Below are positions 1 to 16,055 of a stretch of 64,000 bases of DNA, piece after piece (within the stretch, counting starts at the first letter, position 1; every line of letters starts with the position of its first letter). This DNA comes from Pseudobutyrivibrio sp. Its GTDB lineage: Bacteria > Bacillota > Clostridia > Lachnospirales > Lachnospiraceae. The DNA is taken from the NCBI GenBank assembly GCA_024697025.1, contig JAILGH010000046.1:1-64000 (forward strand), written 5' to 3'. The notes under the pieces were generated by a model. That model was given only the letters and a program-made list of their open reading frames with translations, was not told the origin of the DNA and searched no databases. The position numbers and the translations under genes were made by a program.

Positions 1-119
1 GCAAGAACCTGATCAAAAGTAACCTTCTCACCAGCTTCTACACCAAGCTTTTCAATGGTAATGATATCGCCTTCAGAAACTTTGTACTGCTTACCACCTG
101 TTGCAATAATTGCGTACAT
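1..119 (-). CDS. rplU: 50S ribosomal protein L21 (5' part, runs off the window)
   Basis: Only the first 39 or so codons are present; the gene continues beyond base 1. The N-terminus reads [14 protein letters not shown] and is followed by an acidic GDIITIEKL stretch, which is the conserved start of bacterial L21, a large-subunit protein contacting 23S rRNA. The ATG at 119 is preceded by a strong GGAGGAG ribosome binding site. It has its own promoter and a structured leader. RNase G is the nearest recognisable upstream gene apart from three inserted genes, matching the rng-rplU order of many Firmicutes. Confidence 0.96.
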
Positions 120-121
120 GG

Positions 122-207
122 TTTGCTCCTCCTTTTTATCATTACTCGCCAGTTTCGGTGGTGTCTCGTTATGAAACACACTTAAAAAACCACACTGAGC
201 GGCATAC
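122..207 (-). ncRNA. Probable L21 leader (structured 5' UTR of rplU)
   Basis: Between the rplU promoter and start codon the transcript can fold. CGC(T)CAGT pairs with ACTGGCG near the start codon, and GTGGT pairs with ACCAC inside it, around a T-rich loop. Firmicute rplU mRNAs commonly carry such an L21 leader, thought to bind a ribosomal protein and give autoregulation. The pairing is seen in the sequence; assignment to the family is by position and shape only. Confidence 0.6.
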
Positions 208-213
208 TCAAGT

Positions 214-242
214 ATATTAACACAGGATTTTACCTTCGTCAA
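214..242 (-). promoter_or_regulatory. rplU promoter
   Basis: -35 TTGACG (242..237) and -10 TAATAT (219..214) are separated by exactly 17 bases. This sigma-A-type promoter places the transcript start just ahead of the L21 leader. Confidence 0.8.
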
Positions 243-302
243 CGAAAAATGTTAATATAATTCAAATATGAACAAATTAAATGTAAAATTAAAACAATTT
301 AA

Positions 303-671
303 TTAGTCTACCTGATGAATATCCCCTAAATGCCTTTTTAAATAGGCATCTAAAGAGCTAAGATTCTTGTTGGCACTCTGGCGAATCTTATTTGCTTCAT
401 CATCCAGACAATGGCGGCAAGCCTTTCGCAAATCAGACTCCTCGTTTGCTTCAAACCAGGAATTAAACTGTGCATCCGGCTCCTCTCCATCATGGAATTT
501 AAACTTGCTAAGCTGTAGAGTCAGCTGCGATAATGCTCGAACTCTGGTGGCCTCTTTGGCCTCATCAGTAAGTGTAATCTCAGGAAAATCCTTAATATAT
601 TTTAAAATTTCCTGATCCGCAATATCTTTAGCTTTATCTTCAACTATCTGAATCATTTCACTAAGTTCCAT
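303..671 (-). CDS. Hypothetical small acidic protein (122 aa)
   Basis: Function not recognised. The protein is soluble, with no signal peptide or membrane segment, mostly helical and charged in appearance, and has two cysteines in a CRHC group near residue 85. The longest frame would start at 695, but that ATG abuts the -10 box of a strong promoter and has no ribosome binding site. The ATG at 671 follows a GGGGGTGGAG stretch and gives a start of MELSEM, so that start is used. It sits alone between the SNase/PAS pair and rplU. No stem followed by a T-run was seen after it. Confidence 0.6.
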   Translation of the reverse strand: MELSEMIQIVEDKAKDIADQEILKYIKDFPEITLTDEAKEATRVRALSQLTLQLSKFKFHDGEEPDAQFNSWFEANEESDLRKACRHCLDDEANKIRQSANKNLSSLDAYLKRHLGDIHQVD

Positions 672-693
672 AGCTCCACCCCCGCTTACGGTC

Positions 694-722
694 ATTATAC
701 TTTATGGAAAATATACTGACAA
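694..722 (-). promoter_or_regulatory. Promoter of the small hypothetical gene
   Basis: -35 TTGTCA (722..717) and -10 TATAAT (699..694) with a 17-base spacer. The -10 box overlaps the in-frame ATG of the longest possible reading frame, which rules that codon out as a start. Confidence 0.75.
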
Positions 723-733
723 GCCAAGACACG

Positions 734-1366
734 TTAATTCCACAAATCTTTAAAACCTTGATATTGCCATAGGCCGGTGGAATTAGATCTAGCTTCTTCC
801 ATAAGCTCATGAAAGAAATCGTCATGAGCTACAGTTGGCTCATATTTCTTGGCGATTCCATATCCATTTTGAATAATCAAAGCATTGACCATCGATTTGC
901 GAATATTATCCTCGTCAAAGGTATCCTTGACATCTTCAAGCCAAACATAGGCTAATCTTCTGTCATATCTATCATCATCGTCAATGTCATATTCAAGATA
1001 AAGGGTATTAACGTTAGAAAGCAGCTCTTTGGTATATTCGGACGACATAACACCATATTCATTGTTGCGTTCCTCCTCATGGGCAACAGATTCTGGGGTG
1101 TCTATGCCAATCATTCGCACCCTTTTCTTGTTGCCAGAACCATCGTCTACTATAATTGTGTCGCCATCAACGCATCTAATAAATGTAACAGCATCCAATT
1201 TGCTTTCCTCGTTGTGAGACTCCTCACTTGGAGCAGAAGTATCTTGATTGTTATTGGAGTTTTGATTTAAATCATCTGAAACAGTGGGTGAATTAGTAAA
1301 AAATAAAATTGCAAGTGCAACTAGTCCCAAGATTCCAGATAAAATCTTTTTAATATTTTTGTCCAT
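734..1366 (-). CDS. Thermonuclease family protein (SNase-like), membrane-anchored or secreted
   Basis: Staphylococcal-nuclease fold enzyme, a Ca2+-dependent phosphodiesterase cutting DNA and RNA outside the cell. Residues 7-25 form one hydrophobic segment (signal anchor or signal peptide), followed by a low-complexity Asn/Ser/Glu linker to about residue 57. The catalytic domain starts at FIRCVDGDTI. The RMIGIDTPE motif supplies the equivalents of Arg35 and Glu43 (R84, E92), and DRRLAYVW supplies Arg87 (R136). D68 lies in the metal-binding DGDT. The domain looks complete and active. It starts 8 bases after the PAS-domain gene, so the two are likely co-transcribed. The role (nutrient scavenging or DNA turnover) is inference. 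Confidence 0.9.
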   Translation of the reverse strand: MDKNIKKILSGILGLVALAILFFTNSPTVSDDLNQNSNNNQDTSAPSEESHNEESKLDAVTFIRCVDGDTIIVDDGSGNKKRVRMIGIDTPESVAHEEERNNEYGVMSSEYTKELLSNVNTLYLEYDIDDDDRYDRRLAYVWLEDVKDTFDEDNIRKSMVNALIIQNGYGIAKKYEPTVAHDDFFHELMEEARSNSTGLWQYQGFKDLWN

Positions 1367-1374
1367 GCCGATAA

Positions 1375-1806
1375 TTAAATATTTCTGTTGAAAGAAATAA
1401 CAAGTAAATCTTGTGTCTTTGAATCTCTTACAAAGAAATCTACTATCTCAACCTTGCGAAGCTTTCCGTCATCACCATTTTGAAAAACACGAAGTTCGAC
1501 CTTGTCAGCCCCTTGGCCATACTCCTTCAAAAGGTTTTCCCTAGAAAAAGTCTTCCTAAATAATTCCTTATCCATGTCATGCATCGTAGATGCGCCCGAT
1601 TCAATTAAATCATCGAAGCTACCTGCCGCAGCACATTCTGTTGAAGTAAAATTTTGGTAGGTAAGCATGTAATAAGTGTTCCTTGTAAGATTGCCCACGA
1701 TAATTAGTGGGTAAAGTTGAAACATCGCATGATTCATAAGCTTTAATGCCATCTGTGAATCAAGCTCGGTTTCAGTTTGTGCTAGTTGTTTTTCTTCTGT
1801 AACCAT
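1375..1806 (-). CDS. Stand-alone PAS-like sensory domain protein (143 aa)
   Basis: The segment from about residue 35 to the end (YYMLTYQNF, a FDDLIE block, an ELF block and the final LLVISFNRN strand) resembles the PAS-like input domain that Butyrivibrio-type bacteria attach to GGDEF or histidine-kinase modules. Here no output domain follows. Of two in-frame ATGs, the one at 1806 has GGAGAG about 9 bases upstream, while the one at 1815 has no spaced site, so 1806 is used. It lies directly upstream of the SNase gene. It may act in trans on another signalling protein. The family assignment is from memory of related proteins, so it is moderate. Confidence 0.55.
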   Translation of the reverse strand: MVTEEKQLAQTETELDSQMALKLMNHAMFQLYPLIIVGNLTRNTYYMLTYQNFTSTECAAAGSFDDLIESGASTMHDMDKELFRKTFSRENLLKEYGQGADKVELRVFQNGDDGKLRKVEIVDFFVRDSKTQDLLVISFNRNI

Positions 1807-1914
1807 TTTCTCCATCTCTCCATCTATATTTTTAATTATTTATATCCCCATATTTTAAGTGCTACAGATGTTAATCATAAACGGAAATAAACATCTCTAT
1901 CACAAAAAATCTAA

Positions 1915-2793
1915 TTAAATTATACCAGAAAATGACCTGCTTCTGGTAATTTCTAGTAACCCTAAATGCGAAAAGCCGTGAACGGATATTGTTGAAATAT
2001 CATCTTTGCAAGCCTCTTTAAATAAAGCAATCAACTCCTGTTCATCTTCCTTTGTCACTTTGAGTAAATCAATGATAATCATTCCTGAAATATTACGAAG
2101 TCTAATTTGATGGGCGATTTCATTAACAGCCTGCTTGTTAGTCTCCATAAAGCTGCTCTTTCCAGAATTTTTACCGGAGTTAACATCAATAACAGTTAAG
2201 GCTTCGGTTGGCTCTATAACAATATTGCCTCCATTTTTTAAATGACATATCTTGGATATAGCCCTATCTAATATCTTGGTTAGATCATTAATTTGCCATA
2301 AACTAACGGAATCATCTACATAAGCTTTTACCGGCAAATCCTTTTCAATAATCTCTGGAATGTCAGAAATGATTTCGTAATCTGAATCAGCAAAGTTGTT
2401 AATGTAATAATCTATAAAATCAACCTGATGCTCAGGTTTAGAAGCTAAAAATCTGCAGGAACAAGGCTTAGTACTCTTTTTGTCCTGAGTAATTTGCACG
2501 AAAAACTCATCTGCTTGACATACTGTCTTTCTTTCAGAGTGCCTTGTGACATAAGCATCTGGATTAAGCTTTTTATTTTCGATAAAGCCTTTTTGACCGT
2601 TATCTAATTTTAATATAGAAGAATCAATGTCATTTAAGACTTTTTCTACAGATGCAAGGTAAATTTCTCCTACGTGGGTGTTATCTAAATTAATTATATC
2701 TAAAGGAATATCTCTTTCATCAAATGAAACAAGGAGCCTTAGCTCCTTCTCCAAAAATATCCCCTTGGTAATAACAATTCGCTTAATTCCCAT
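1915..2793 (-). CDS. rng: Ribonuclease E/G family protein, short form
   Basis: Endoribonuclease of the RNase E/G family (rRNA and mRNA processing). An S1-like strand region (VGEIYLASVEKVL to GQKGFI) lies near residues 41-71. The catalytic DNase I-like part carries TVIDVNSGK and MIIIDLL, whose Asp residues (about 203 and 242) match the Mg2+ ligands D303 and D346 of E. coli RNase E, followed by the conserved GLLEITRSR. The protein stops there at 292 aa, whereas RNase G is about 490 aa. The zinc-link CPxC motif and C-terminal domain are absent and the S1 and 5'-sensor parts are reduced. The ATG at 2793 is used because GGAG lies 6 bases upstream; the longer frame begins with TTG touching that site. 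Confidence 0.85.
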   Translation of the reverse strand: MGIKRIVITKGIFLEKELRLLVSFDERDIPLDIINLDNTHVGEIYLASVEKVLNDIDSSILKLDNGQKGFIENKKLNPDAYVTRHSERKTVCQADEFFVQITQDKKSTKPCSCRFLASKPEHQVDFIDYYINNFADSDYEIISDIPEIIEKDLPVKAYVDDSVSLWQINDLTKILDRAISKICHLKNGGNIVIEPTEALTVIDVNSGKNSGKSSFMETNKQAVNEIAHQIRLRNISGMIIIDLLKVTKEDEQELIALFKEACKDDISTISVHGFSHLGLLEITRSRSFSGII

Positions 2794-2813
2794 GCTCAAC
2801 TCCTCTATTTAAT

Positions 2814-2842
2814 ATTATGAATTAAGGCCCCTTTGGTGTCAA
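2814..2842 (-). promoter_or_regulatory. rng promoter
   Basis: -35 TTGACA (2842..2837) is a perfect consensus, with a 17-base spacer and -10 CATAAT (2819..2814). It is about 20 bases upstream of the rng start codon. Confidence 0.75.
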
Positions 2843-2951
2843 TCTGAACTAATAGTAGTATTAAAAATGATATTTAATAACAGAATATAAAATTTTTATT
2901 AAATTTTACCCCAAAAGATGTTTTTTGCTGATAATCTGTTATCATAGAGTC

Positions 2952-2990
2952 ATACATATGTATCACCTATTAATTATTTTACGCGTAAAA
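2952..2990. promoter_or_regulatory. Two perfect palindromes upstream of the lipoprotein gene
   Basis: ATACATATGTAT (2952..2963) and TTTTACGCGTAAAA (2977..2990) are both perfectly self-complementary, with centres 26 bases apart. They lie in the 226-base gap between rng and the plus-strand lipoprotein gene. They could be operator sites. No well-matched plus-strand promoter was found around them. Confidence 0.3.
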
Positions 2991-3019
2991 AATCAGCAAC
3001 TAGGGGAAAGGATAAAAAA

Positions 3020-3709
3020 ATGAAAAATAAAATTTTAATGTTTATGATGGTTTGCGCAATTGCTTTAAGCGGTTGTATTAATTTTGTAAATCCAATTGAG
3101 AAACAAAGTACAGAAATCTCAAACGATGTAAGACTCGCAAAACCTTTAATAGCTACTGCTGCGTATTACAATCCAGCTTCACAAGTAATTTCAGACTATG
3201 TAAATGGAGCAAACAGTTGCATCAAGTCAATTGACATAAGTGGTTGTAATTCATTTTCACAAATCGTAGATAAAAAATTATCTAAAGGTATGGCATATGC
3301 AAACGTTACAATTGGGGGTAATGAAGCTCTTTTAGTTACCGATAGTACTTGGAAAGAAGACGGTAAAAATTATTCCTACAGAGCAATCGTATACATGTAC
3401 AAAAATGGCAAGCCAGTCGAAATCGGAAAATTGTGCTCAGGTGGTACAGCAGATCCAATAGCAACAAAGGATGGCTACATTTTCTCAGCAGACCATCACA
3501 GGGTATGTAAGTTCACAATCCATGAGGGCAGACTTTTTGTAAAGGAGCTTGCTACTGATGTAACAAAAAATGGCTCAACTAATTATGGTTACTATTCAGA
3601 AGACCCAACTGTTAATACAAACATTGACAATAATGCAGCTGCTAAAAAGCAAAGAAGCTTATTTGATGAAATGTCAAATGGAAAAACTGTAAATTTCACA
3701 GTAAAATAA
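3020..3709 (+). CDS. Hypothetical lipoprotein (229 aa)
   Basis: The N-terminus MKNKILMFMMVCAIALSGC is a lipoprotein signal peptide with lipobox LSGC, giving a lipidated Cys19. The mature part is of unrecognised family, rich in Tyr, Asn and Ser, with further cysteines (about residues 67, 75, 140 and 158) that might form disulfides. GGGGAAAGG ahead of the ATG is the ribosome binding site. It is on the opposite strand to all surrounding genes and is closed by a bidirectional terminator. It interrupts the cluster (radical SAM, DUF2344, rng, rplU) that is contiguous in many Clostridia. Confidence 0.75.
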   Translation: MKNKILMFMMVCAIALSGCINFVNPIEKQSTEISNDVRLAKPLIATAAYYNPASQVISDYVNGANSCIKSIDISGCNSFSQIVDKKLSKGMAYANVTIGGNEALLVTDSTWKEDGKNYSYRAIVYMYKNGKPVEIGKLCSGGTADPIATKDGYIFSADHHRVCKFTIHEGRLFVKELATDVTKNGSTNYGYYSEDPTVNTNIDNNAAAKKQRSLFDEMSNGKTVNFTVK

Positions 3710-3726
3710 TTAAATAATAAATTAGG

Positions 3727-3763
3727 AAAAGCACCTTAGCTTAATTTAAGCCAAGGTGCTTTT
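3727..3763. terminator. Bidirectional intrinsic terminator
   Basis: An AAAAGCACCTT...AAGGTGCTTTT stem is flanked by A-run and T-run, so it can stop both the plus-strand lipoprotein gene and the minus-strand DUF2344 gene. Confidence 0.85.
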
Positions 3764-3766
3764 CTA

Positions 3767-4477
3767 TTACTGACCTATATCTCCAAGTGAAATAAAGGAA
3801 TCACTCTCACCTGTAAACATATCTGTTCTCTTAATATCCAATGACAATTCATCAAACTCTGGCAAGCCTAAGAATTCATGGAAAGCCTTCACAACCAGCT
3901 CCGGCTTAATATTATCCGTGCTTCCACTTGATAACAATAAATCGTAAACAGGCTTATTATCCACAACCCTAATATTAAAACGATAGATAAGAGGCTTTAA
4001 ATCAAGCACCCTCTCTCCTTTTTTAGTCTTTTTCACAATGTTGATAGAAGCTGTCTCGTCAAAGAACTTTTGCTTTAATTCCAAAATATTATCTACATAA
4101 CAAGCATCATCCTTAGAGTCCTTGTATGTCACAAGATAACTTGCTGCTGTAACTGCAGACATACACTTTTCAGCATTATCCGGCAGGTACTTGAAGCTTT
4201 TTATTTCAAGGCCCTCTACCATGTTTGCATTAAGAGTCTCAAGAGCGGCTTTGGAATCGACTTGCTCCTTGATATCGATGTCCATGTACTCACCTTCTGA
4301 AGTAAGGCCTACACCAAGAGGAGAAGCAAATGACATAATCTGATGAGGGTTGAAGCCCTCAGAATATCTTATAGGAAGTCCTGCTCTCTTAACTGCCTTT
4401 TGAAAGAAACGCATCAAGTCCAGGTGGCCGACATATCTCATTATTCCGGTTTTTTCAAATCTAATTCTAACGCGCAT
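3767..4477 (-). CDS. DUF2344 / TIGR03936 family protein
   Basis: The RIRFEKTGIMRYVGHLD opening and FNPHQIMSFASPLGVGLTSEGEY block are hallmarks of TIGR03936, a family found next to or fused to TIGR03960 radical-SAM proteins, near RNase G and L21. Biochemical function is unknown; a role in RNA or ribosome modification has been inferred from context. At 236 aa it is of usual size. Its start overlaps the end of the radical-SAM gene by 11 bases, indicating translational coupling. In several relatives the two are one polypeptide; here they are separate genes. Confidence 0.88.
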   Translation of the reverse strand: MRVRIRFEKTGIMRYVGHLDLMRFFQKAVKRAGLPIRYSEGFNPHQIMSFASPLGVGLTSEGEYMDIDIKEQVDSKAALETLNANMVEGLEIKSFKYLPDNAEKCMSAVTAASYLVTYKDSKDDACYVDNILELKQKFFDETASINIVKKTKKGERVLDLKPLIYRFNIRVVDNKPVYDLLLSSGSTDNIKPELVVKAFHEFLGLPEFDELSLDIKRTDMFTGESDSFISLGDIGQ

Positions 4478-6335
4478 TATGACATACCCCCGATCCTATT
4501 CTGGCAGCACCGCAGCCACTGCACATCATTTTACAGTTAGGAGTAACAGTTGCATTCATGGCGTTTTCCCATTCTTTCTTTAAAAATGCTTTGGTAACAT
4601 GACAATCAATGAAATCCCATGGCAATATTTCATCTAAATCACGCTGACGGTATGCATAAAAATCTACAGATATATTATTTTTTTCAAAGGCAGCAAGCCA
4701 TTTGTCAAAATCAAAATACTCGCCCCAAGCATCAAAGAAGCAACCACTTTTGTATGCGTCAAGAATTGCAGGGCAAAGTCTTCTGTCGCCTCTGGCAAAT
4801 ACACCCTCAAGAACAGTAACATCAGAGTGATGCCAGTTGTACTTAAGTGACTTTTGATTAAGCTGAGCCTTCATCTCGTCATTAACTATCTTTGCTCGGC
4901 GTAAATACTCTCCTGCTTCATACATAGGTGCCCACTGGAATGGCGTAAATGGCTTTGGTACAAAGAAGGATGTGGAAATAGTAATCTGACAACGCCCTTG
5001 TCTTTGCTCCTTTGGAACAGTATCGTAGTAAGCAGCAGCTACCTCATTGGCAAGACGAGGAATAGCCTTCATGTCCTCATCAGTCTCAGTAGGAAGTCCG
5101 AGCATAAAATAAAACTTAACCTTGTTCCATCCACCTTTAAATGCAAGTGTGGCACCACCGATAATGTCATCTACAGTAAGGCCCTTGTTAATAACGTTTC
5201 TCATTCGCTGAGAGCCAGCCTCAGGGGCAAAGGTAATACTAGACTTTCTGACATCCTGAACCTTGCTCATAACATCAAGTGAAAATGCATCAATTCGTAA
5301 AGACGGTAATGATACATTAACGCCCTCTGACAAGCAATCATTAATAAGAAAATCCATCAAATCGCCCAAGGCATGATAATCACTTGAAGAAAGTGAACTA
5401 AGAGAAATCTCCTCATGCCCAGTAGACGCCAATAATTCTTTGGCTTGCTTTTTAAGAATATCTACAGACTTTTCTCTGTTTGGTCTATAAATCATACCGG
5501 CTTGGCAGAATCGACATCCTCTAATACAGCCACGCTGAATCTCTAATACGACACGGTCTTGAATTGCACGAACAAAAGGAATCAGCATCTTGGTTGGATA
5601 AGTAGTGCTGTCCATATCAGCAACCACCTGTCTGACAATTGTAGCTGGCACATCATTAAACTTTGGCCTAAAGCTTTCAATTGTGCCGTCAGACTCCTTG
5701 TAGGTAACCTCATAAAGACTTGGAACATAAATACCAGGTATCTTGCTAGCCTCTCTAAGAAATGCCTGTCTGTCAAAGCCACTAGCCTTGTGCTTTTTGT
5801 ATAAATCGAGAAGGGCTGGATAGCTAGTCTCGCCCTCTCCCACATATACCAAATCAACAAAGTCAGCAATAGGCTCAGGATTGGTTGCACATGGTCCACC
5901 TACAATGATGATTGGATCATTGTTTTCTCTATCCTTTGTCTCAAGGGCAACTCCAGCCAAATCAAGAATCTGAAGTATATTGGTATAGCACATTTCGTAC
6001 TGTAGTGTCATACCAATAAAATCAAAGTTCTTGATTGCATCCTGAGATTCTAACGCAAAAAGAGGTATATTCCTCTCCTTCATCAGATTATGCAAATCTG
6101 GCCAAGGCGAATATACCCTTTCACAATATGTGTCCTCTCGACGATTAAGCATATCATAAAGAATAGCAATGCCAAGATGAGACATACCTACCTCGTAGAC
6201 ATCAGGAAAGCACATGGCAAATCTAATGTCTACATCAGCAGGATTCTTTTTAACGCTATTAAATTCATTGCCGATATATCGTGCAGGCTTATCAATCTGC
6301 ATCAAAATATCGTCAGGTAAAGCAAGTTTTTTCAT
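4467..6335 (-). CDS. TIGR03960-family B12-binding-like radical SAM protein
   Basis: An N-terminal B12-binding-like Rossmann region (about 35-190, with VGMSHLGI and IIVGGPCATNPEP) precedes a radical SAM core holding the 4Fe-4S cysteines in CIRGCRFC (C270, C274, C277). A C-terminal region ends with a cysteine cluster (CKMMCSGCG plus a last Cys near 618). At 622 aa it matches unfused family members. The reaction is unknown. It lies only 5 bases downstream of the HisIE fusion gene, so it is probably read as the distal part of the histidine transcript, and overlaps DUF2344 by 11 bases. Confidence 0.88.
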   Translation of the reverse strand: MKKLALPDDILMQIDKPARYIGNEFNSVKKNPADVDIRFAMCFPDVYEVGMSHLGIAILYDMLNRREDTYCERVYSPWPDLHNLMKERNIPLFALESQDAIKNFDFIGMTLQYEMCYTNILQILDLAGVALETKDRENNDPIIIVGGPCATNPEPIADFVDLVYVGEGETSYPALLDLYKKHKASGFDRQAFLREASKIPGIYVPSLYEVTYKESDGTIESFRPKFNDVPATIVRQVVADMDSTTYPTKMLIPFVRAIQDRVVLEIQRGCIRGCRFCQAGMIYRPNREKSVDILKKQAKELLASTGHEEISLSSLSSSDYHALGDLMDFLINDCLSEGVNVSLPSLRIDAFSLDVMSKVQDVRKSSITFAPEAGSQRMRNVINKGLTVDDIIGGATLAFKGGWNKVKFYFMLGLPTETDEDMKAIPRLANEVAAAYYDTVPKEQRQGRCQITISTSFFVPKPFTPFQWAPMYEAGEYLRRAKIVNDEMKAQLNQKSLKYNWHHSDVTVLEGVFARGDRRLCPAILDAYKSGCFFDAWGEYFDFDKWLAAFEKNNISVDFYAYRQRDLDEILPWDFIDCHVTKAFLKKEWENAMNATVTPNCKMMCSGCGAARIGSGVCHNAR

Positions 6336-6340
6336 ATGAT

Positions 6341-7621
6341 TTATCTTTGAGCGAGCTCAGAGGTAATATCGTCCCAAGTAACACCTTTTTCAACCATGAG
6401 AACCATCATGTGATACAAGAAATCAGAAATCTCGTACTTGGTCTCTTCTGAATCAGGATTCTTGGCTGCAATAACAATTTCAGTAGCCTCTTCGCCAACC
6501 TTTTTAAGGATTTTGTCTAAGCCCTTATCAAACAGATAGTTGGTATAAGAACCTTCCTTTGGATGTGCCTTGCGGTCTGAAATAACTGCATAAACATCCT
6601 CAAATACCTTAAGTGGATTGCGCTCAACATACTCCTTTTTAACAATCTCGTTGAAGAAGCAGCTAGGTGCGCCAGTGTGACATGCTACTCCAACCTGAGA
6701 AACTTTCGCCAAAATAGTATCAAAATCACAGTCAGCAGTCAATGACTTAACATACTGGAAATGTCCGCTTGTCTCGCCCTTTACCCAAAGAGACTGTCTA
6801 GAGCGTGAGAAATATGTCATCTTGCCTGTACGGATAGTATTGTTTAAAGATTCCTCATTCATGTAAGCAACCATGAGGACCTCGCCAGTCTGGAAATCCT
6901 GAACAACAGCTGGAACTAGTCCATCTGAGTTTGGCTTTAAATCTGCCCAGCTAAGCTTTGGCTCAAAGTTGTCCATCTTGATACCAGCATCAGATAAATC
7001 ACTCTTGATTCGCATGATGTCTGAATTAGTATCGTTAATAAATGCACCAGAGATACCTCTGATTTGATCAGATTCAAGAAGTGATTGAATGTCATCAAAA
7101 TTGAACTCATCAACTTGAACGATATAAGGAATAGTTGTAACATTCTCTAATCCCTCAAGAAGTGTTCTATTCATGATTAAAAGCTCATGTACGTTGTCTG
7201 CCAAAAATTCTTTGGTTTTGAAAAGGAAATCTATAGTTGCAAGGCTAACGAGAATCTTCTCAGCTCCAAATCTTGCGCTAGCTTCCTTAACAAGGTCAAT
7301 TGCCTCTGGCTTTGAGCCGTTTAAGATAACCTCGATACATCCAGCATAGAGAAGCTTTTTAACGTCCTCGAGACGCTTGATGTTACCGCCACCAGCTGTC
7401 TTAATCTGGATGTTTCTGTTAATCTCGCGAATAGCAAGAATGTTCTTTTCGTGCTCCTCGTCATCTGTCGAAAGATCATAACAAATAATCTTATCGATAC
7501 CGCTGTCATCATAAACTGATGCAAGTTCCAAAACGTCCTTTTTATCATCTAACTCTGTAGGACTTTTAACCGCCATACCATCCTTTAAATAGATAGTGGC
7601 AACAATATTTTTATGTTCCAT
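6341..7621 (-). CDS. hisIE: HisF-like domain fused to HisI-HisE (phosphoribosyl-AMP cyclohydrolase / phosphoribosyl-ATP pyrophosphatase)
   Basis: Three parts. Residues 1 to about 215 resemble a HisF/HisA TIM barrel ([37 protein letters not shown]). Residues about 225-330 are HisI, with the zinc and substrate residues of TADCDFD and the [10 protein letters not shown] block. Residues about 335-426 are HisE ([21 protein letters not shown]). HisE hydrolyses PR-ATP and HisI opens PR-AMP, steps 2 and 3 of histidine synthesis. Compared with HisF, the catalytic Asp11 position is Tyr11 and the Asp130 position falls in SLAT with no Asp, so the barrel is probably not a cyclase. Ordinary HisIE is about 210 aa. 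It lies downstream of hisB. Confidence 0.9.
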
Positions 7622-7641
7622 AATCTGAACTAATCCTCTCT

Positions 7642-8238
7642 TTAAATTGATCCCTTAGTAGTCATTGCGGAATCTTTTAGTCTTGAATCAATTGTGGTAG
7701 CCTCATCTAATGCCTTGGCAAAAGCTTTGAACATTGCCTCACACATGTGATGAGAATTACCTGGTGTAATAACCTTAATGTGTAAATTCATTGCCGCAGA
7801 ATAAGAAATCGCATAGAAAAACTCTTTAACCATCTCTGTATCCATATAACCGATTTTCTCGGTAGGAAACTCAGCCTCGAAGGAAAGATATGGTCTGTTA
7901 CACAAATCAACTGCAACAAGAACCAATGTCTCATCCATAGGAAGAATACAGCTACCATATCGCTTCATGCCAAGCTTAGCTCCGCAAGCCTTCTTGATGG
8001 CATTTCCAAGGACTATACCTGTATCCTCTATTGTGTGGTGACAGTCTACCTGCAAATCGCCTTTAATGTCTGCAGACAAATCAAACAATCCATGTCTGGT
8101 AAAAGCATCAATCATGTGGTCAAAGAAACCTATGCCTGAATCAACCTGACAAAGGCCGCTGCCATCAATGGAAAAATCGATTGTAATATCCGTCTCTTTA
8201 GTTTTTCTAGCTACTCGTGCTCTACGTTCTTCTGACAT
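7642..8238 (-). CDS. hisB: Imidazoleglycerol-phosphate dehydratase
   Basis: Mn2+-dependent dehydratase for step 7 of histidine synthesis. The 198 aa match the monofunctional enzyme. Metal-binding histidine motifs are present: [23 protein letters not shown] and the C-terminal [13 protein letters not shown]. It sits 20 bases upstream of the HisIE fusion gene. A 139-base AT-rich gap separates it from hisD, so it may have its own promoter. hisC, hisH, hisA and a true hisF are not in this operon and must lie elsewhere. Confidence 0.96.
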
Positions 8239-8377
8239 ATTTTTCCCCTAAATTGCTAAAATCACTCCAAGAATTATTATAACTAATAAATACACATTAT
8301 AAAAGAATTATAATCTTAAAGTTTTATTAACTCTATCGTCGCTTCGCTTATAATTTAAAATCGTATCAAGCTTGATT
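8239..8377 (-). promoter_or_regulatory. AT-rich hisD-hisB intergenic region, possible internal promoter
   Basis: This 139-base gap breaks an otherwise tightly packed operon. On the minus strand it has several TATAAT boxes but no clear -35 at 17 bases. The 12-base palindrome ATCAAGCTTGAT lies just after the hisD stop. An internal promoter or processing site is likely, but the exact element is not resolved. Confidence 0.35.
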
Positions 8378-9670
8378 TCAAATATCTTCGAATCTCACCT
8401 TAATTGAATTTGCGTGAGCTGTAAGCTGCTCGTTGTTTGCAAATTTAACAATATCTGGATAAACCTTTTTAAGTGCTTCCTTAGAGTAAGAAATAACGCT
8501 AGATTTCTTAATGAAATCATCAACTGAAAGTGGTGAGAAAAATCTAGCGGTTCCATTTGTAGGAAGTACGTGGTTAGGCCCAGCAAAGTAATCGCCAAGT
8601 GGCTCTGATGAATACTGGCCAAGGAACATCGCTCCTGCATTCTTAACATATGTCATTGTCTCAAATGGATTAGCAGTAACAATCTCTAAATGCTCTGATG
8701 CTATAGCGTTAACACAGTCAATTGCATCTTTCATATTGTCTGCTACAAGAAGGTATCCAAAGTTATCAAGTGACTTTTGGATGATGTCCTTTCTTGAGAG
8801 AATCTTAACAAATCTCTCAACTTCCTTTGCGACCTCATCAGCAAGCTTCTCTGATGTAGTAACAAGGATTGCTGATGCAAGCTCGTCGTGCTCTGCCTGA
8901 GAAAGTAAATCAGCTGCCACATAAGTAGGATTAGCTGTCTCATCTGCAAGTACTAAAATCTCTGAAGGGCCAGCGATGGAATCGATTGAAACATATCCAA
9001 ATACCGCCTTCTTTGCTAAAGCAACAAAAATGTTGCCCGGACCAACAATCTTATCTACCTTAGCGATTGACTCTGTTCCAAAAGCAAGAGCTGCTATGGC
9101 CTGAGCACCACCGCATTTGTATATAACATCTACACCAGCCTCGTTTGCAGCAACTAGAGTGCTAGGATTGACCTTGCCCTCCTTGTCGCATGGAGTACAC
9201 ATGTAAATACAGTCAACACCTGCAACCTTAGCAGGCATAACATTCATAAGAACTGAAGAAGGATATACTGCCTTACCACCTGGCACATAGACACCAACCT
9301 TTGCAAGTGGTGAAAACTTTTGACCAAGGATTATACCTTCCTCGGAAGTAAACCAGCTATTCTGCTTTTGTTTTGCGTGATAGCTTTCGATGTTGACAAG
9401 TGCCTTTCTAATAACCTCAACAAGCTCTGCCGGTACTACCTTGTAGGCTTCTTCTATCTCCTCTTTAGTAACGACTATGTTGTCGGCATTAATATCAGCA
9501 CCATCAAATTTTTTGGTGTATTCAAATACAGCTTTATCGCCGCCATCTCTAACGTTGCCAACGATTTCATTAACTGTTGCTTCGTACTCTGTATACTGAT
9601 TAGGGCTTCGCTTAAGCAAAGACTCTAATATGCCTTCAATTGTCTCACTTGTAAGTTTAAGCTTTCTCAT
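8378..9670 (-). CDS. hisD: Histidinol dehydrogenase
   Basis: Zn2+ and NAD+-dependent enzyme for the last two steps of histidine synthesis. The 430 aa show the complete fold, with GPGNIFVALAKK, AGPSEILVLAD, the zinc motif LLSQAEHDE, SEHLEI and the substrate loop FAGPNHVLPT. Its start overlaps the end of hisG by 14 bases, so the two are translationally coupled. No unusual residues were noticed. Confidence 0.97.
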   Translation of the reverse strand: MRKLKLTSETIEGILESLLKRSPNQYTEYEATVNEIVGNVRDGGDKAVFEYTKKFDGADINADNIVVTKEEIEEAYKVVPAELVEVIRKALVNIESYHAKQKQNSWFTSEEGIILGQKFSPLAKVGVYVPGGKAVYPSSVLMNVMPAKVAGVDCIYMCTPCDKEGKVNPSTLVAANEAGVDVIYKCGGAQAIAALAFGTESIAKVDKIVGPGNIFVALAKKAVFGYVSIDSIAGPSEILVLADETANPTYVAADLLSQAEHDELASAILVTTSEKLADEVAKEVERFVKILSRKDIIQKSLDNFGYLLVADNMKDAIDCVNAIASEHLEIVTANPFETMTYVKNAGAMFLGQYSSEPLGDYFAGPNHVLPTNGTARFFSPLSVDDFIKKSSVISYSKEALKKVYPDIVKFANNEQLTAHANSIKVRFEDI

Positions 9671-10313
9671 TTTCCAAAGCTCCCTTCAATTTTTCGATAA
9701 GGGCTGTAATTCTCTCGTGTTCCATCTTCATTGAAACCTGATTTACAACCATTCTTGCTGAAAGAGGACATACCTCCTCAAGAACAACAAGTCCATTTTC
9801 TCTAAGTGTAGATCCTGTCTCTACGATATCTACGATAACCTCTGAAAGACCAACGATAGGTGCAAGCTCAATTGAACCGTTAAGCTTGATAATCTCTACT
9901 GTCTGGTTCTTGGTATTGTAGAAATAATCCTTTGCAATGCGTGGATACTTACTAGCAACGCGGATAAGCTCGTGATGCTTAAGTAAATCCTCTGCCTCCT
10001 TTGGGCCGCACACGCACATACGGCACTTGCCAAATCCAAGGTCTAAAACCTCGTAAATGTTGCGGTTCTCCTCTAGGATTGTATCCTCACCAACTACGCC
10101 TATATCTGCAGCACCATACTCAACATATGTAGGTACGTCTGGACCCTTTGAAAGGAAAAATCTAAGCTTTAACTCTTCGTTGGTGAAAATGAGCTTTCTA
10201 GTGTCAGGATCCTTCATCTCCTCGCAGGTAATTCCAATGCTTTCAAATAAAGCAAGTGTCTGTTTTGCAAGACGCCCCTTACCAAGGGCGAAAGTTAAAT
10301 ATCTATCACTCAT
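9657..10313 (-). CDS. hisG: ATP phosphoribosyltransferase, short form catalytic subunit
   Basis: First committed step of histidine synthesis (ATP plus PRPP to PR-ATP). At 218 aa this is the short HisG-S form lacking the C-terminal regulatory domain, which needs HisZ for activity and feedback control. ALGKGRLAKQ begins the fold, GAADIGVVGEDTI is a substrate-binding segment, and DIVETGSTL is the PRPP loop. It lies 4 bases downstream of hisZ, as expected for partners of a hetero-octamer. Confidence 0.97.
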   Translation of the reverse strand: MSDRYLTFALGKGRLAKQTLALFESIGITCEEMKDPDTRKLIFTNEELKLRFFLSKGPDVPTYVEYGAADIGVVGEDTILEENRNIYEVLDLGFGKCRMCVCGPKEAEDLLKHHELIRVASKYPRIAKDYFYNTKNQTVEIIKLNGSIELAPIVGLSEVIVDIVETGSTLRENGLVVLEEVCPLSARMVVNQVSMKMEHERITALIEKLKGALENEKA

Positions 10314-10317
10314 ATTA

Positions 10318-11301
10318 TTATCTCTCCAATGCTAACATTAACTGGTCTACTGTAATCGCAAAGCCAATAGCTGGCTTATCCTTGCCAAAGTGGCTAAGAA
10401 GTGAATCATATCTACCACCCTTTACTAAAGGCTCGCCAATTCCATATGAATAGCCTGTAAAAATAATTCCTGTATAGTACTTGTACTCAGAAATCATACC
10501 AAGCTCAAATGAAACGTAATCCATAACGCCGTTCTTATCCAAAATCTCATATAACTGATTGAGATAAACAAGAGCATCATAAACCTTTGAGTATCCCTTA
10601 GCCTTTTCAAGATAAGACGCCCACTCATCTGGAGCATTTAAAATCTTGGCTGTAATATTAAAAAGTTCTAAAAGGTCTGAATCAACGCCGGCCTTCTCAA
10701 GAAGCTCCTTTGCTCCGTAAAAGTTCTTGTTGGAAATCAATGAGATAAGCTTTTCCTCATCTGACTCAGAAAGATTAGCTGCCTCAATAAGACCTCTAAC
10801 AACATCAATGTGGCCAACACCAATTTCAAATTCCTTAAGGCCTAACTCCTTAAGAGCATTTACAACTATAGTAAGAATCTCAGCATCCGCCTCTACAGAG
10901 CTTACGCCAATAAACTCGCAGCCAGCCTGAGTACTCTCCTTAAGACGGCCCTGAAGACTGTGATAATTGATGAATACATTGCCCTCATAAGAAAGCTTCA
11001 CTGGTGTATCAGTGTCAGAAAAATACATAGCTGCAGCTCTAGCTACAGATGGTGTAATATCTGGGCGAAGTACAAGTGTGTTGCCATCTCTATCAAAGAA
11101 CTTGAACATCTCGTTGGACTTGCATGAGCCTACCTCTTTTGAGAATGTATCAAAATACTCAAAAGTAGGTGTAGAAATTGGGCTATAACCAAAATCCTTG
11201 AAACACTTTCTAAGATTATATAAAGCATCTAAACGACGCTCATACTCGCTATTATAAATATCACGAACTCCCTCTGGAGTATGTAAAGTTAAGTTTTTCA
11301 T
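10318..11301 (-). CDS. hisZ: ATP phosphoribosyltransferase regulatory subunit
   Basis: Catalytically dead class II histidyl-tRNA synthetase paralogue that pairs with short HisG and gives histidine feedback inhibition. It shows TPEGVRDIY, the motif-2-like LRPDITPSVAR and the late GGRYDSLLSHFG. At 327 aa it lacks the anticodon-binding domain of true HisRS. First gene of the operon, with AAGGAG ahead of the ATG and a strong promoter 50 bases upstream. Confidence 0.95.
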   Translation of the reverse strand: MKNLTLHTPEGVRDIYNSEYERRLDALYNLRKCFKDFGYSPISTPTFEYFDTFSKEVGSCKSNEMFKFFDRDGNTLVLRPDITPSVARAAAMYFSDTDTPVKLSYEGNVFINYHSLQGRLKESTQAGCEFIGVSSVEADAEILTIVVNALKELGLKEFEIGVGHIDVVRGLIEAANLSESDEEKLISLISNKNFYGAKELLEKAGVDSDLLELFNITAKILNAPDEWASYLEKAKGYSKVYDALVYLNQLYEILDKNGVMDYVSFELGMISEYKYYTGIIFTGYSYGIGEPLVKGGRYDSLLSHFGKDKPAIGFAITVDQLMLALER

Positions 11302-11349
11302 ATTAACTCCTTTGCTTAGTTCACTTTAGTCTGCTAACGTAATAAAGTG

Positions 11350-11378
11350 ATTATAACCGAAGAAAGCCACGAAGTCAA
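11350..11378 (-). promoter_or_regulatory. Histidine operon promoter
   Basis: -35 TTGACT (11378..11373), 17-base spacer, -10 TATAAT (11355..11350). It begins 5 bases after the recU stop. The leader to hisZ is about 40 bases, too short for a T-box or a histidine attenuator. Confidence 0.88.
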
Positions 11379-11382
11379 CTTT

Positions 11383-11922
11383 CTAGGCTAAATCGCGGCT
11401 TTTTAAATCAATATTTATCATATCTAGATAAGGAACAAGTAAGTTTGGTTTGGTAGAAAAGAAATATTTTTCATCTAATTCCTCTATACGAAAACTCTTT
11501 CTACCTCCCTCTACCATCCTATCCCAAAAACTCTTTAACTGTTGATAGGTTAAATAATAATAGATATCTCTCTCACTAAAAAATATTAAAATAAACGCCA
11601 AACCGTCCTGTTTTTCCCATTGCCCCATAAAGTCAATCTGGTGAGGATGGATATTTTGTAAAGGAAAAGTATCCTTATTACATTCCTTAGCATCAAAACA
11701 AACAGGAATCCCCTGAATAGCCCCCACATAATCTACAGTAGACTTTTGGTCGAAATATGCAAGGGTTATGTGCCCCTTTTTGCTATCCATCTCGATAGGT
11801 GTAATTGGAGTTGGAATTTTTTGAATAAGGGCTAAACCATTTTCTTGGTAGACGTCGTTTGTTTTGTTTATAAATTCTTCGAATGTTGAACCTCGAAGAC
11901 CTCTGGATTTAAAAGTAGACAT
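11383..11922 (-). CDS. recU: Holliday junction resolvase RecU
   Basis: Structure-specific endonuclease resolving four-way DNA junctions, working with RuvAB. Family signatures are GSTFEEFINKTN, KIPTPITPI, the catalytic STVDYVG (Asp64), CFDAKE (Asp77, Lys79) and FPLQNIHPHQ. The position usually Glu in FEAKET is Asp here, a conservative change. The 179-aa start (MSTFKSRG) is chosen because AGAGGAG lies 5 bases upstream; the longer frame to 12006 would add 28 residues unlike RecU. It overlaps the pseudouridine synthase gene by 14 bases. RuvA and RuvB are encoded about 21 kb away. Confidence 0.93.
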   Translation of the reverse strand: MSTFKSRGLRGSTFEEFINKTNDVYQENGLALIQKIPTPITPIEMDSKKGHITLAYFDQKSTVDYVGAIQGIPVCFDAKECNKDTFPLQNIHPHQIDFMGQWEKQDGLAFILIFFSERDIYYYLTYQQLKSFWDRMVEGGRKSFRIEELDEKYFFSTKPNLLVPYLDMINIDLKSRDLA

Positions 11923-12844
11923 TAAACTCCTCTGGCTCCTTTGCTTCGTATATACGATTATCAGAAAACTCAATCGAGTATGCGTGTAAAAGTTGGCTCT
12001 TGGCATTTAGCCTTTTATTAGCTGATACATTGCCATATTTCATATCTCCTAAAATAGGATGTCCTATGCTTGACAAATGCGCACGTATCTGGTGCGTTCT
12101 TCCGGTAATTAGATGAATCTCAAGTAAAGTCAAATCATTATCTAAATGCTTAAGTGGATGATAGGCTGTCTTGATTGGCTTGGAATCTTTAACCTGTTTA
12201 TCTGTAATTGTAACTGTGTTAGTAGCCTCATCCTTTACAAGAAAGCCGTCAACCTGGCTTGCTTCATCAACGCTTCCAAGGACAATTGCATGATAAAGCT
12301 TGATGCAGCTTCTCTCCTTTAGAGCCTTACCAAGGCGTTGACTTGCCGGAAGATTTTTTGCAAATAAAACTATTCCAGATGTATTTCTATCAAGTCTGTT
12401 ACAAATACTAGGATGAAAATGCTTAAAATCCTCCTCAGAAAGCTGTCCCGATGAAATCATATAGGATAAAGCCATCTCATTGATTGAAACATCGCTGTCG
12501 CTATCCTTTTGAGACTTAATACCTGAGGGCTTGTTAATGATAATCATGTTTTCATCTTCATAGACTATATCAATATTTGAGTCTACTGACTTAAGCTTAT
12601 CATATAAAGGATCAGTAATATCTTTTCCTGACATTTTGTCAAAGGTTTCATCAGAAAACCATATCTTTACAATATCATCTGTATTAAGTTTCTCTGCGCC
12701 ATCAGCCTTCTTGTCATTTAAAGTGATGTTTTTCTTTCGAAGCATCTTGTAAATAAATGATGTGGATGCCTCGGAAAGAACTCGCTTCAAATATTTATCA
12801 AAGCGCTGATTGCTATCGTTTTCGTTTATTATTAGTTCTTTCAT
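11909..12844 (-). CDS. RluA-family pseudouridine synthase
   Basis: Isomerises uridine to pseudouridine in RNA. An S4-type RNA-binding domain occupies residues 1-70 ([10 protein letters not shown]). The catalytic domain has NKPSGIKSQ and [20 protein letters not shown], where Asp152 in RLDRxTSG is the catalytic residue, plus [20 protein letters not shown]. At 311 aa with an S4 domain it fits the RluC/RluD group, but the target (23S rRNA or tRNA) cannot be set from sequence. It overlaps the ygiQ-like gene by 32 bases and recU by 14. Confidence 0.93.
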
Positions 12845-14759
12845 TTTTTGTTTTAGTTTTCCCTGTATTTTTAGAAGAATTAGTCTTAATACTATTCTTG
12901 GATTGTTTATTTCTTACTTGCTTGGTATTCGATTTATTAGAATTTATAACTTTAGCATTTTTGATTTTTCTTGGAGGAATAAGACAATTCTCTCCAAATC
13001 CTATCAAATCCTCTCTACCAGCTTTGATTAAAGCCTCTTTTACAAGGTCATAATTTTCAGGACGCTTGTACTGAATCAACGCCCTTTGCATGGCCTTTTC
13101 ATGCGGATTCTTACAAACATAAACAGGCTTCATATCCCTTGGGTCAATTTCAGTATAATACATAGTTGTAGAAATTGTACTTGGAGTTGGATAAAAATCC
13201 TGCACCTGCTCAGGGGACAAATGATGGTCTCGCAAATATTCTGCCAAAGCTATTGCATCATCTAGGGTTGAGCCTGGATGAGAACTCATAAGATAAGGCA
13301 CTAAGTATTGCTTAAGATTAAGCTGCTTGTTAATCTTGGCATACTTTTCACAAAAACTGTTATACACGCTAATATCAGGCTTTCCAAGGTACGATAATAC
13401 ATTGTTAGAAATATGCTCAGGAGCTACCTTGAGCTGCCCGCTGATATGATATTTGCAAAGCTCCCTAAGGAAAGTATCATCCTTATCGTACATCACATAA
13501 TCAAATCTTACACCTGAACGAACAAATACCTTCTTTACCTTTGGAAGCTTTCTAAGCTTAGAAAGAAGCGATACATAATCCTTGTGGTCAACCTCAAGAT
13601 TAGGACACTTGGTAGGGAAAAGGCATTGACGATTGGTGCAAACTCCTTTAGTCATCTGCTTTTTGCAAGACGGATTCCTAAAGTTGGCAGTAGGACCACC
13701 TACATCATGAATGTATCCCTTAAATTCTGGGTCCTCAGTAATTAGCTTCGCCTCATTAATAATTGACTCATGACTGCGAGATTGTATGATGCGTCCCTGA
13801 TGAAAGGTTAATGCACAGAAGTTACATCCACCAAAACATCCCCTGTTACTAATCAAAGAAAACTTAACTTCCTTGATTGCAGGAATACCTCCGGCGGCCT
13901 CGTACATTGGATGGTATGTCCGCATATACTCTATCGCATATATATCATCCATCTCCTGTCTACTTAAAGGCTTTTGAGGTGGATTTTGTACAACAAACAT
14001 AGATCCATCATAGGTCGCCACAAGCTTTTGGGCTGTAAAAGCATCCGTATTTACGTATTGCACATAAAAGCTTTTAGCATAACTAGTCTTATCAGATTTA
14101 ATCTCCTCGTATGATGGAAGAATTAATCCATCCTCAGTAAAGGACTTATCTCGAGTTTTAAATACTGTGCCTGGAATATAAGTTATGTCCTTAACATCCA
14201 TTCCAGAAGCAAGACAATCAGCTATTTCTATTACAGAACGCTCTCCCATTCCATAAGAAATCAAATCTGCTCCAGATTCTAACAATATAGAACGACGAAC
14301 CTTATTTGACCAATAATCATAATGAGCAAGTCTTCTAAGGGATGCCTCTATCCCTCCGATTATGATAGGCTTCTTTTTGTATGTATGACGAATTAAATTG
14401 CAATAAACAACGGTGGCGTAATCAGGTCTAAGACCAATCTTGCCTCCTGGAGAATAATTGTCATAGTCTCTGCGACGTTTTGAAACGCTATAGTGGTTAA
14501 CCATAGAATCCATATTTCCTGCGCTAACCAAAAAGCCAAGACGTGGTTCTCCTAAAATATCAATAGAACTATCATCCTTCCAATCTGGCTGAGAAATTAT
14601 CCCTACAGAATAACCATGTAACTCTAAAATCCTGCATATAATAGCTGCACCAAAAGAAGGATGATCTACATAAGCATCACCACACACATAGACAAAATCT
14701 AATTGGTCTATGCCTCTTTCTTTTAAATCAGCTTTACACACTGGCAAAAACTTTTGCAT
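12813..14759 (-). CDS. ygiQ: YgiQ family radical SAM protein
   Basis: UPF0313/YgiQ family, reaction unknown. The N-terminal part has [16 protein letters not shown] and [17 protein letters not shown]. The radical SAM cluster motif is [11 protein letters not shown]. Conserved downstream blocks include KVAPEH, MSSHPG and [15 protein letters not shown]. The last 45 residues or so form a Lys/Asn/Ser/Thr-rich basic tail that looks disordered and may bind nucleic acid. Its end overlaps the pseudouridine synthase start by 32 bases. Confidence 0.92.
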
Positions 14760-14793
14760 AAATACCTCTAAACATATTAGTAAAAAAGAAAAA

Positions 14794-14848
14794 AGCCAAC
14801 CTTAAGCAGACAAGCATTACCTACGCTTATGAGCTAAACAAGTTGGCT
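14794..14848 (-). terminator. Terminator of the yicC-coaD operon
   Basis: AGCCAAC pairs with GTTGGCT around an inner AAGC...GCTT hairpin, followed on the minus strand by a long T-rich run. It sits between the coiled-coil gene and ygiQ. Confidence 0.8.
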
Positions 14849-14868
14849 AATAACTTTCTAAAATTAAT

Positions 14869-15561
14869 TTATTCTTTGTTGAAGAACTGCTCTGGAATAT
14901 CTAAAGCTGGGACTTCCTCCTCGGCAGCCTGTACAGCAGCACCTTGTGCCTCGGCAACTGGCTGCGCTGCGGTTGCTTCTAGTGAAGTCGCAGGGTCTGT
15001 AGCGCCATCATTAAGAGACTCTGGAACAAGTGATGCTCTGTTGGCATCAACAGTATCAAGATAAACCTGCATAGTGCTGAGGAATGTATCTGTACGAGTC
15101 TTGGTAGTCTCGATTGAATTAGCTAAAATAGATTGAATATTAGCAAGCAACTCATCCGTATATGCGATAGCGCCCATTCTAATATTGTTAGCATCTTCAG
15201 TAGCTCTATCAATCTTCTCCTGAGCATTCTTCTGCGCTATAAGAATAACTTCGTTAGCCTGAGCATAAGCTTGTTGCATAATCTGATGCTCTGAAACAAG
15301 CTCGTTGGTCTGAACCTGTGCCTGGCTAATTATATCGTCAGCTTTTGCTTTTGCGTCAGCTAAAATCTGCTCACGATTAGCAATCATACGCTGATATTTA
15401 CGTATTTCGTCTGGAGTCTTTGTTCTAAGCTCCTGTAATAAAGATTCAAGCTCATCCTTATTAACAATAATTTTGTTTGTGGAAAAAGCTGATGGCTTGC
15501 AATCATCAATATAAGCTTCAATCTCGTCAATAATGTCTTCAATTTTGCTTGTATTTGCCAT
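14869..15561 (-). CDS. Coiled-coil protein (DivIVA / ATPase subunit-like), 230 aa
   Basis: No enzyme motif. Residues 25-150 are Ala/Glu/Gln/Lys-rich with heptad-like spacing, reminiscent of DivIVA or of ATP-synthase subunit B/E coiled coils, for which such genes are often labelled. After about residue 180 comes an Ala/Glu-rich, probably disordered tail ending DIPEQFFNKE. There is no signal peptide or membrane helix. It is the last gene of the yicC operon, 5 bases after coaD, a neighbourhood seen in other Lachnospiraceae. A scaffold or cell-pole role is a guess. Confidence 0.7.
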   Translation of the reverse strand: MANTSKIEDIIDEIEAYIDDCKPSAFSTNKIIVNKDELESLLQELRTKTPDEIRKYQRMIANREQILADAKAKADDIISQAQVQTNELVSEHQIMQQAYAQANEVILIAQKNAQEKIDRATEDANNIRMGAIAYTDELLANIQSILANSIETTKTRTDTFLSTMQVYLDTVDANRASLVPESLNDGATDPATSLEATAAQPVAEAQGAAVQAAEEEVPALDIPEQFFNKE

Positions 15562-15566
15562 TATGT

Positions 15567-16055
15567 TTACTTCTCCTTGTTATTAAATTTGGCTTCTATA
15601 AGAGGTATAACCTGAGGTGGAACAAATAGGCTAATGTCTCCGCCATAAGACGCAAATTCCTTTGCGACAGTAGAACTCAAATATGAATACTTTAAAGATG
15701 TAGTCATAAACAAGGTCTCAAGCTCTGGATATTGAACCTTATTGGATTGAGCAAGCTGAATTTCATTTTCAAAATCTGTAACAGCTCTTAAGCCTCTAAT
15801 TATAACCTGTGCATCTTTTTTCTTAGCGAAATCAACCAATAACCCCTCAAAGCATTCAACTTTGACGTTATCTAAATTTTCAGTCAATTCACTTATCATA
15901 CTAACACGTTCATCAATGGAAAACAACGGATTTTTTTGCTTGTTATTGAGAACGCCGATGATTAACTCATCGCATAATTTACTCGCTCTTTTAATGATAT
16001 CCAAATGTCCAAAAGTAATGGGATCAAAACTACCAGGATAAATTGCTCTTTTCAT
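15567..16055 (-). CDS. coaD: Phosphopantetheine adenylyltransferase
   Basis: Penultimate step of coenzyme A synthesis (4'-phosphopantetheine plus ATP to dephospho-CoA). The nucleotidyltransferase motif [16 protein letters not shown] (TxGH as TFGH) is at the N-terminus, with the conserved [16 protein letters not shown] and [18 protein letters not shown] blocks. The 162 aa are standard. It starts 1 base after rsmD, a common pairing. Confidence 0.97.

Follow-up and report, generated by a model that had tools for sequence, protein, structure and literature searches.

A HisF-like barrel without its catalytic residues precedes HisI-HisE in Lachnospiraceae and co-occurs with HisE

In a histidine gene cluster of Pseudobutyrivibrio, the HisI-HisE enzyme carries at its N-terminus a HisF-like barrel that, judged by its sequence, is a catalytically dead cyclase whose active site has been lost. 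Dead domains of this kind precede HisI in most Lachnospiraceae genera that we read, have a new conserved face on one of their helices, and their presence as well as that of the face follows HisE, a relation that was absent from an earlier, sequence-only reading of this DNA. We propose that a former HisF has been retained without catalytic function, as a structural or docking module whose likeliest partner is HisE, a reading whose truth we consider evenly balanced.

Results

The window, by which we mean the whole analysed stretch of DNA, is the first 64 kb of contig C26 in an assembly of 110 contigs, and the nearest relatives of the locus belong to Pseudobutyrivibrio. Positions 6341-7621 of its minus strand hold an open reading frame with an ATG start that encodes 426 amino acids plus stop. 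The sequence-only reading had described this gene, with no strand given, as a HisF-like domain fused to HisI-HisE, and profile matches confirmed that layout. All features given below by window position lie on the minus strand. The dead HisF-like (beta/alpha)8 barrel was assigned to residues 1-218 (6968-7621) from Pfam His_biosynth (7.3e-20 on this stretch), AlphaFold2 and Foldseek. A linker placed by alignment (residues 219-230; 6932-6967) leads to the HisI (phosphoribosyl-AMP cyclohydrolase) domain at residues 231-330 (6632-6931; PF01502, 3.1e-34; motifs present), which is followed by the HisE (phosphoribosyl-ATP diphosphatase) domain at residues 337-426 (6344-6613; TIGR03188, 3.5e-31; GEEATE motif). 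The HisIE part (residues 231-426) is intact, with the usual motifs and an NF002747 score of 264.7 bits against a cut-off of 187. In the whole protein, residues 6-130 matched Pfam His_biosynth far beyond chance (E 3.3e-19) and also HisF structures by sequence. The NCBIfam matches to WbuZ (7e-18), hisF (5e-15; 55.5 bits against a cut-off of 294.55) and HisA (2.7e-11) all stayed far under their own cut-offs.

The fusion gene is the last in a cluster ordered hisZ (10318-11301), hisG (9657-10313, 218 amino acids), hisD (8378-9670), hisB (7642-8238) and fusion. It is the sole Pfam His_biosynth match in the 64-kb window (E up to 10), and no hisH occurs among the open reading frames read in positions 1-16000, which bears out the earlier description of an operon without hisA, hisF or hisH. 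A search for a separate true hisF in the genome was successful: it lies side by side with hisH on contig C3, so that the pathway need not rely on the fused barrel for cyclisation. The fusion gene holds the only PRA-CH match above cut-off in the genome. The hisA gene is of the eukaryotic type (TIGR02129), as in 95 of 140 genomes of the family, and lies on a contig other than that of the his cluster (C31; L003, 1438-2229, minus strand). Contig C32 encodes an AglZ/HisF2-type protein (L002, 1432-2202, minus strand), next to an open reading frame that looks glycosyltransferase-like by eye. An Rfam search over window positions 1-64000 gave no family at gathering score and no T-box ahead of the his cluster.

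AlphaFold2 predicted a complete eight-stranded barrel in the full-length protein (pLDDT 88, pTM only 0.67), and residues 1-224 modelled alone reached a pLDDT of 92.2 and a pTM of 0.89. Foldseek ranked HisF of Thermotoga maritima (1thf) and HisF-LUCA first for the barrel domain, and in this comparison of the predicted structure with HisF the barrel fold was kept (TM 0.81 to 1thf, by query length). Sequence similarity to HisF fades past residue 130, but in the prediction the HisF-like (beta/alpha)8 barrel runs on to completion, spanning residues 1-212. The alignment of some 215 residues with HisF claimed previously therefore held by sequence for approximately residues 1-130, the remainder of the barrel coming solely from the predicted structure. 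The domain is shortened in several genera, which means that a full barrel is not required. At loci L207, L208 and L216 (the last from another family) it has been cut to about the first half of the barrel, and HisI and HisE remain.

The active site was assessed in an alignment of 103 dead domains, one per genus, with 34 close true HisF controls (29 from Lachnospiraceae loci, the window genome's own HisF, and four of family f41). Both catalytic aspartates were present in all 34 HisF proteins; among the 103 dead domains, Asp11 was kept in 3, Asp130 in 25 and both in 2 (G763 and G733). The window protein has Y11 (codon 7589-7591) in the Asp11 column and A128 (7238-7240) in the Asp130 column. This alignment, together with the predicted fold, supports what had been read from the sequence, namely that Asp11 is Tyr, that the strand of Asp130 lacks an Asp, and that a barrel is kept with both catalytic residues gone. 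Alignments of close relatives comprised the window protein with 65 of 80 loci (A1) or with 37 (A2), and D131 (7229-7231) was the only invariant Asp near strand 5 among 66 close relatives. We rejected D131 as a shifted catalytic Asp, since it aligns with the helix-5 Asp of HisF (D in 33 of 34 HisF and 36 of 103 dead domains) and begins helix 5 in both AlphaFold2 models; no catalytic aspartate was found at a shifted position.

The phosphate-binding loops are mostly lost as well. G203, G177 and G82 are phosphate-site residues of HisF. G203 is conserved in 2 of the 103 dead domains and G82 in 6, gaps fill the D176 column in 77 and the G177 column in 95, and K19 is kept in 21, the window protein included. 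At the G203, G177 and G82 columns, then, the two sites differ from those of an active HisF, and almost every domain has the second one removed or substituted. Better kept are the columns of HisF D51 (D in 76 of 103) and N103 (N in 55 of 103). The sequence-only reading had suggested, as alternatives, a scaffold-type role, docking of HisH and sensing of a phosphoribosyl metabolite. D98, the HisH docking residue of HisF, survives in 5 of the 103 dead domains, and the true hisF adjoins hisH in 31 of 31 loci inspected (the genome's own and the 30 best), so docking of HisH is not supported. Nor is sensing of a phosphoribosyl metabolite by way of the sites known from HisF, because the second phosphate site has been lost in nearly all domains and N stands in place of G82 in 53 of 103.

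A new set of conserved residues was found on helix 3 (residues 85-92; 7346-7369). In the 103 dead domains, E85 is present in 97%, K88 in 99%, K89 in 97% and Y92 in 98%, and the commonest residues in the same columns of the HisF controls are D (53%), R (50%), A (35%) and R (88%). All four residues together are found in 98 of the 103 dead domains but in none of the 34 true HisF; the six shortened domains have them too. Its spacing within the helix (i, i+3, i+4, i+7) places the four residues on one face, which should point outward given the hydrophobic residues in between. A weaker new conserved set (D54, H57, E58) lies on helix 2, and a D-x-S...H-E stretch after strand 2 is conserved. The mean frequency of the commonest residue in the 103 domains was 0.36 in the top loops, which are the working face of HisF and here the least conserved class, against 0.53 in the bottom loops. 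In a separate calculation, the domain as a whole averaged 0.65 on this measure, HisI 0.85 and HisE 0.82. In 190 pairs from 20 Pseudobutyrivibrio genes, the domain had a pN/pS of 0.12 (0.08 over residues 1-125 and 0.18 over residues 126-222), compared with 0.09 in HisI and 0.06 in HisE, values that are rough since synonymous sites were saturated. In the alignments, conservation has shifted onto one face of helix 3.

The distribution of the domain was surveyed in 140 genomes of the family, each from another genus. HisI was present in 126 and had no match in 14; 125 of the 126 were read, G659 with its partial HisI being left out. The dead barrel precedes HisI in 103 of these 125 genera, HisA is fused to HisI in 3, and HisI has neither in 19. 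These counts cover the family, and long frames outside it (e.g. in G514, G439, G392, G583, G551 and G467) were left out. Five of the 19 genera (G742, G663, G709, G665 and G642) have a hisB-H-A-F-I cluster, form a group apart in the trees, and were set aside as probably foreign; bare HisI without the domain occurs in 14 genera, one of which (G722) is aberrant. True hisF scored above cut-off in at least 123 of the 140 genomes. In 8 of 20 chosen loci (L205-L209, L215, L216 and L219) the order is hisB, hisA, dead HisF-HisI, and the fusion there stands where hisF stands in the five hisB-H-A-F-I clusters.

In the HisIE tree, built from 44 rows, the family's fusion arose once (100/98, rough bootstrap). 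In the HisF/HisA tree, 16 dead-domain rows formed one clade on the HisF side (100/96), apart from the family's own hisF, and descent from HisA was rejected on the same tree (98/97). WbuZ, which gave the best NCBIfam E-value for the window domain, is a single long row inside the HisF side, so that the dead domain might still derive from WbuZ. A common origin with the intact HisF-HisIE fusion of f41 was rejected, as the two group apart in both the HisIE and the HisF tree. Some loci depart from the common pattern: HisA is fused directly to HisI at L202, L203 and L204 (G645, G654 and G688) and to HisI-HisE at L217 (G047), in each case with no dead HisF domain. L218 (G746), with damaged HisI and HisE motifs and no hisF above cut-off among the matches listed, is probably decaying.

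Presence of the barrel was closely tied to that of HisE. HisE is part of the chain in 105 of 125 genes, and 102 of these also have the dead barrel; the other three are the probably foreign G709, G665 and G642. G678 encodes the barrel and HisI with no HisE, and its face, reading EDNK, is lost. The 19 genes with neither barrel nor fused HisE comprise 14 bare HisI, 3 HisA-HisI, and G742 and G663, where hisE is a separate gene. No HisE above the cut-off was found in 17 genera (13 bare HisI, 3 HisA-HisI and G678); 16 of them lack the barrel, and the 17th, G678, has the decayed face. TIGR03188 detected HisE in 0 of 18 genera without fused HisE and in 8 of 8 controls. The HisE Pfam search found it above cut-off in 0 of 17 genera, with a weak sub-threshold match in G647, and in 18 of 18 controls; G722, with its aberrant HisI and no hisF found, was left out of this search and of that for MazG. 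HisI lies between barrel and HisE, so that no single deletion could take away the two, and joint loss requires two events. The face followed the state of HisE also among the fused genes: all 98 genes with an intact HisE E-E-x-x-E motif also have an intact face (97 EKKY and one DKKY), and of the 4 with a damaged motif, 2 have lost the face (G746 and G725) and 2 keep it, G761 (EKKY) and G771 (DKKY). The HisI motifs are intact in G725 and damaged in G746.

The genera without HisE (G751, G662, G676, G696, G720, G712, G736, G705, G647, G745, G693, G639, G651, G645, G654, G688 and G678) have HisI in all 17 cases and hisF in at least 16. Another enzyme may carry out the HisE (PRA-PH) step in them. 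MazG was rejected as a general replacement, being above cut-off in 6 of the 17 (five strong matches and one weak) and in none of the other 11. The neighbours of the HisI genes were compared with a small set of his and flanking proteins, and an adjacent gene outside that set may replace HisE.

How often barrel and HisE were lost together was estimated on a HisI+HisB+HisD tree, covering 105 of the 125 genera, and on a tree of HisF+HisH, a separate locus, covering 90. The HisF+HisH tree requires 12 changes for 12 bare-HisI rows, at least 5 of them forced by supported branches, and the HisI+HisB+HisD tree 9 changes for 11 bare rows, at least 3 of them supported. Independent-pair tests on supported branches gave a median p of 0.25 and, on the HisF+HisH tree, 0.0625. 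These results make repeated coupled loss likely, short of proof, and leave the number of independent events unsettled. The tie might instead be historical, both parts having been lost once or a few times and the result having spread as bare hisI with no functional link, an account that we find rather unlikely. Nine bare-HisI rows do fall into one weakly supported cluster of 15 rows (83) in the HisI-only tree, as would fit a possible spread of bare hisI by transfer, and a single clade of all dead-domain rows was not rejected on HisI+HisB+HisD (p-AU 0.209). However, bare G736 is the supported sister of fused G724 (SH-aLRT 97 and 95), G705 is likewise paired with G661 (95, HisF+HisH tree), and G678 represents a separate loss of HisE with a decayed face.

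Discussion

A sequence of events that would produce this pattern begins in a Lachnospiraceae ancestor, with the fusion of HisF to HisIE at the operon position normal for hisF. With a separate hisH-hisF pair doing the cyclase work, the fused copy would have lost its catalytic site, afterwards or meanwhile. The barrel fold would have been kept, with the helix-3 face (E85, K88, K89, Y92) and, more weakly, helix 2 (D54, H57, E58) binding a partner of importance only as long as a functioning HisE half is there. HisE would be the likeliest such partner, whether within one chain or across a dimer, and the barrel would then position or stabilise HisE beside HisI. Physical contact between barrel and HisE, and with it a scaffold role, is what we infer from the new face and the co-occurrence. 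Against this reading count the shortened domains, the two genera (G761 and G771) that keep the face beside a damaged HisE motif, the unsettled number of joint losses, the low full-length pTM and the closeness of the HisF controls. The scaffold-type role suggested by the sequence-only reading gains support as a kind of role, and its HisH-docking and sensing alternatives do not.

The alternatives to this reading overlap in part. One that shares ground with the historical account is that the dead HisF stays simply because it is fused and must fold harmlessly for HisI, being jobless and slowly eroding. The shortened domains, the absence of the barrel in the 14 bare-HisI genera, its replacement by HisA in three and its lower conservation relative to HisI and HisE all agree with such a relic, but the near-invariant face that HisF controls lack, the low pN/pS, the spread over 103 of 125 genera and the tie with HisE make it unlikely in our judgement. 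The barrel could also be a dock in trans for another pathway protein such as HisD, HisB or HisG-HisZ, the last of which makes the substrate of HisE; with HisE replaced, such a dock would no longer be of use. The HisE link would also fit a partner acting upstream of HisE, and the fusion shares its cluster with hisZ, hisG, hisD and hisB; such a dock is putative, and we give it little credence. A domain that senses a ligand or retains residual catalysis through what remains of the first half of the barrel is most unlikely, for although the D51 and N103 columns, the D-x-S...H-E stretch and K19 in the window protein might serve it, the top loops are the least conserved class, both phosphate sites are mostly lost and K19 is kept in few domains.

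Our preferred reading, a dead HisF retained as a structural or docking module, can be set beside several known proteins. The domain resembles active HisF in its predicted (beta/alpha)8 fold, in its similarity over about the first 130 residues and in its descent in the tree; it differs in lacking the catalytic aspartates, the second phosphate site and the HisH docking residue, in its score, far below that of the family, and in its genomic place, active HisF lying beside hisH and the fusion gene having no hisH among the open reading frames read around it. Compared with the bifunctional HisIE enzyme (NF002747 / PRK02759), the window protein has complete HisI and HisE, scoring above the cut-off, and some 220 extra residues in front. 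The f41 fusion, from the same phylum (L106, L112, L113 and L115), has the same domain order in one frame of 461-466 amino acids, but it keeps D11 and D130 and has a separate origin in the HisIE tree. It is an independent fusion with its catalytic residues intact, and as such a natural active counterpart. HisA/F-HisIE fusions occur in four archaeal assemblies (PMC11237513); these likewise combine a barrel of HisA/HisF type with HisIE, in other organisms, and the accessible part of that report does not describe them as dead. In Roseburia, a related genus, the accessible text of PMC7478625 gives the same operon, with hisG, hisZ, hisD, hisB and 'hisEI', and hisF-hisH separate, and does not mention an N-terminal domain of 'hisEI'. 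A literature search, with subscription journals mostly outside its reach, found no description of a dead HisF domain.

Fungal HIS4 also carries an extra domain of similar length before HisI-HisE. According to the part of PMC1963479 that is accessible, this N-terminal domain of 160-220 residues is without known conserved domains or relatives, and its authors thought it structural. The HIS4 chain differs in that it also carries HisD, which in the window is a separate gene. A profile of the window family did not match two approximate fungal HIS4 sequences. With a wider profile of dead domains, the approximate S. cerevisiae HIS4 sequence scored above 40 of 40 shuffles, but with a probability of 9%, and the match to the approximate K. 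phaffii HIS4 sequence was 7 columns long. A relation of the fungal domain to the dead barrel is, on these comparisons, a lead. The bolder combination, in which the dead enzyme would be an obligatory docking subunit of HisE and the HIS4 domain a further-decayed barrel of the same kind doing the same job, we regard as very doubtful.

For this pseudoenzyme, the live parent, a live fused analogue, half-sized forms, replacement and absence are all found in genomes, so that the path by which a catalyst became a structural part can be followed stepwise across them. The face of E85, K88, K89 and Y92 offers a concrete surface for testing, an idea is suggested for the N-terminal domain of fungal HIS4, and 17 genera are exposed that have HisI without detectable HisE. 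A histidine enzyme of these gut and rumen bacteria thus carries a dead version of a second enzyme from the pathway, which probably now serves to hold or dock rather than to catalyse.
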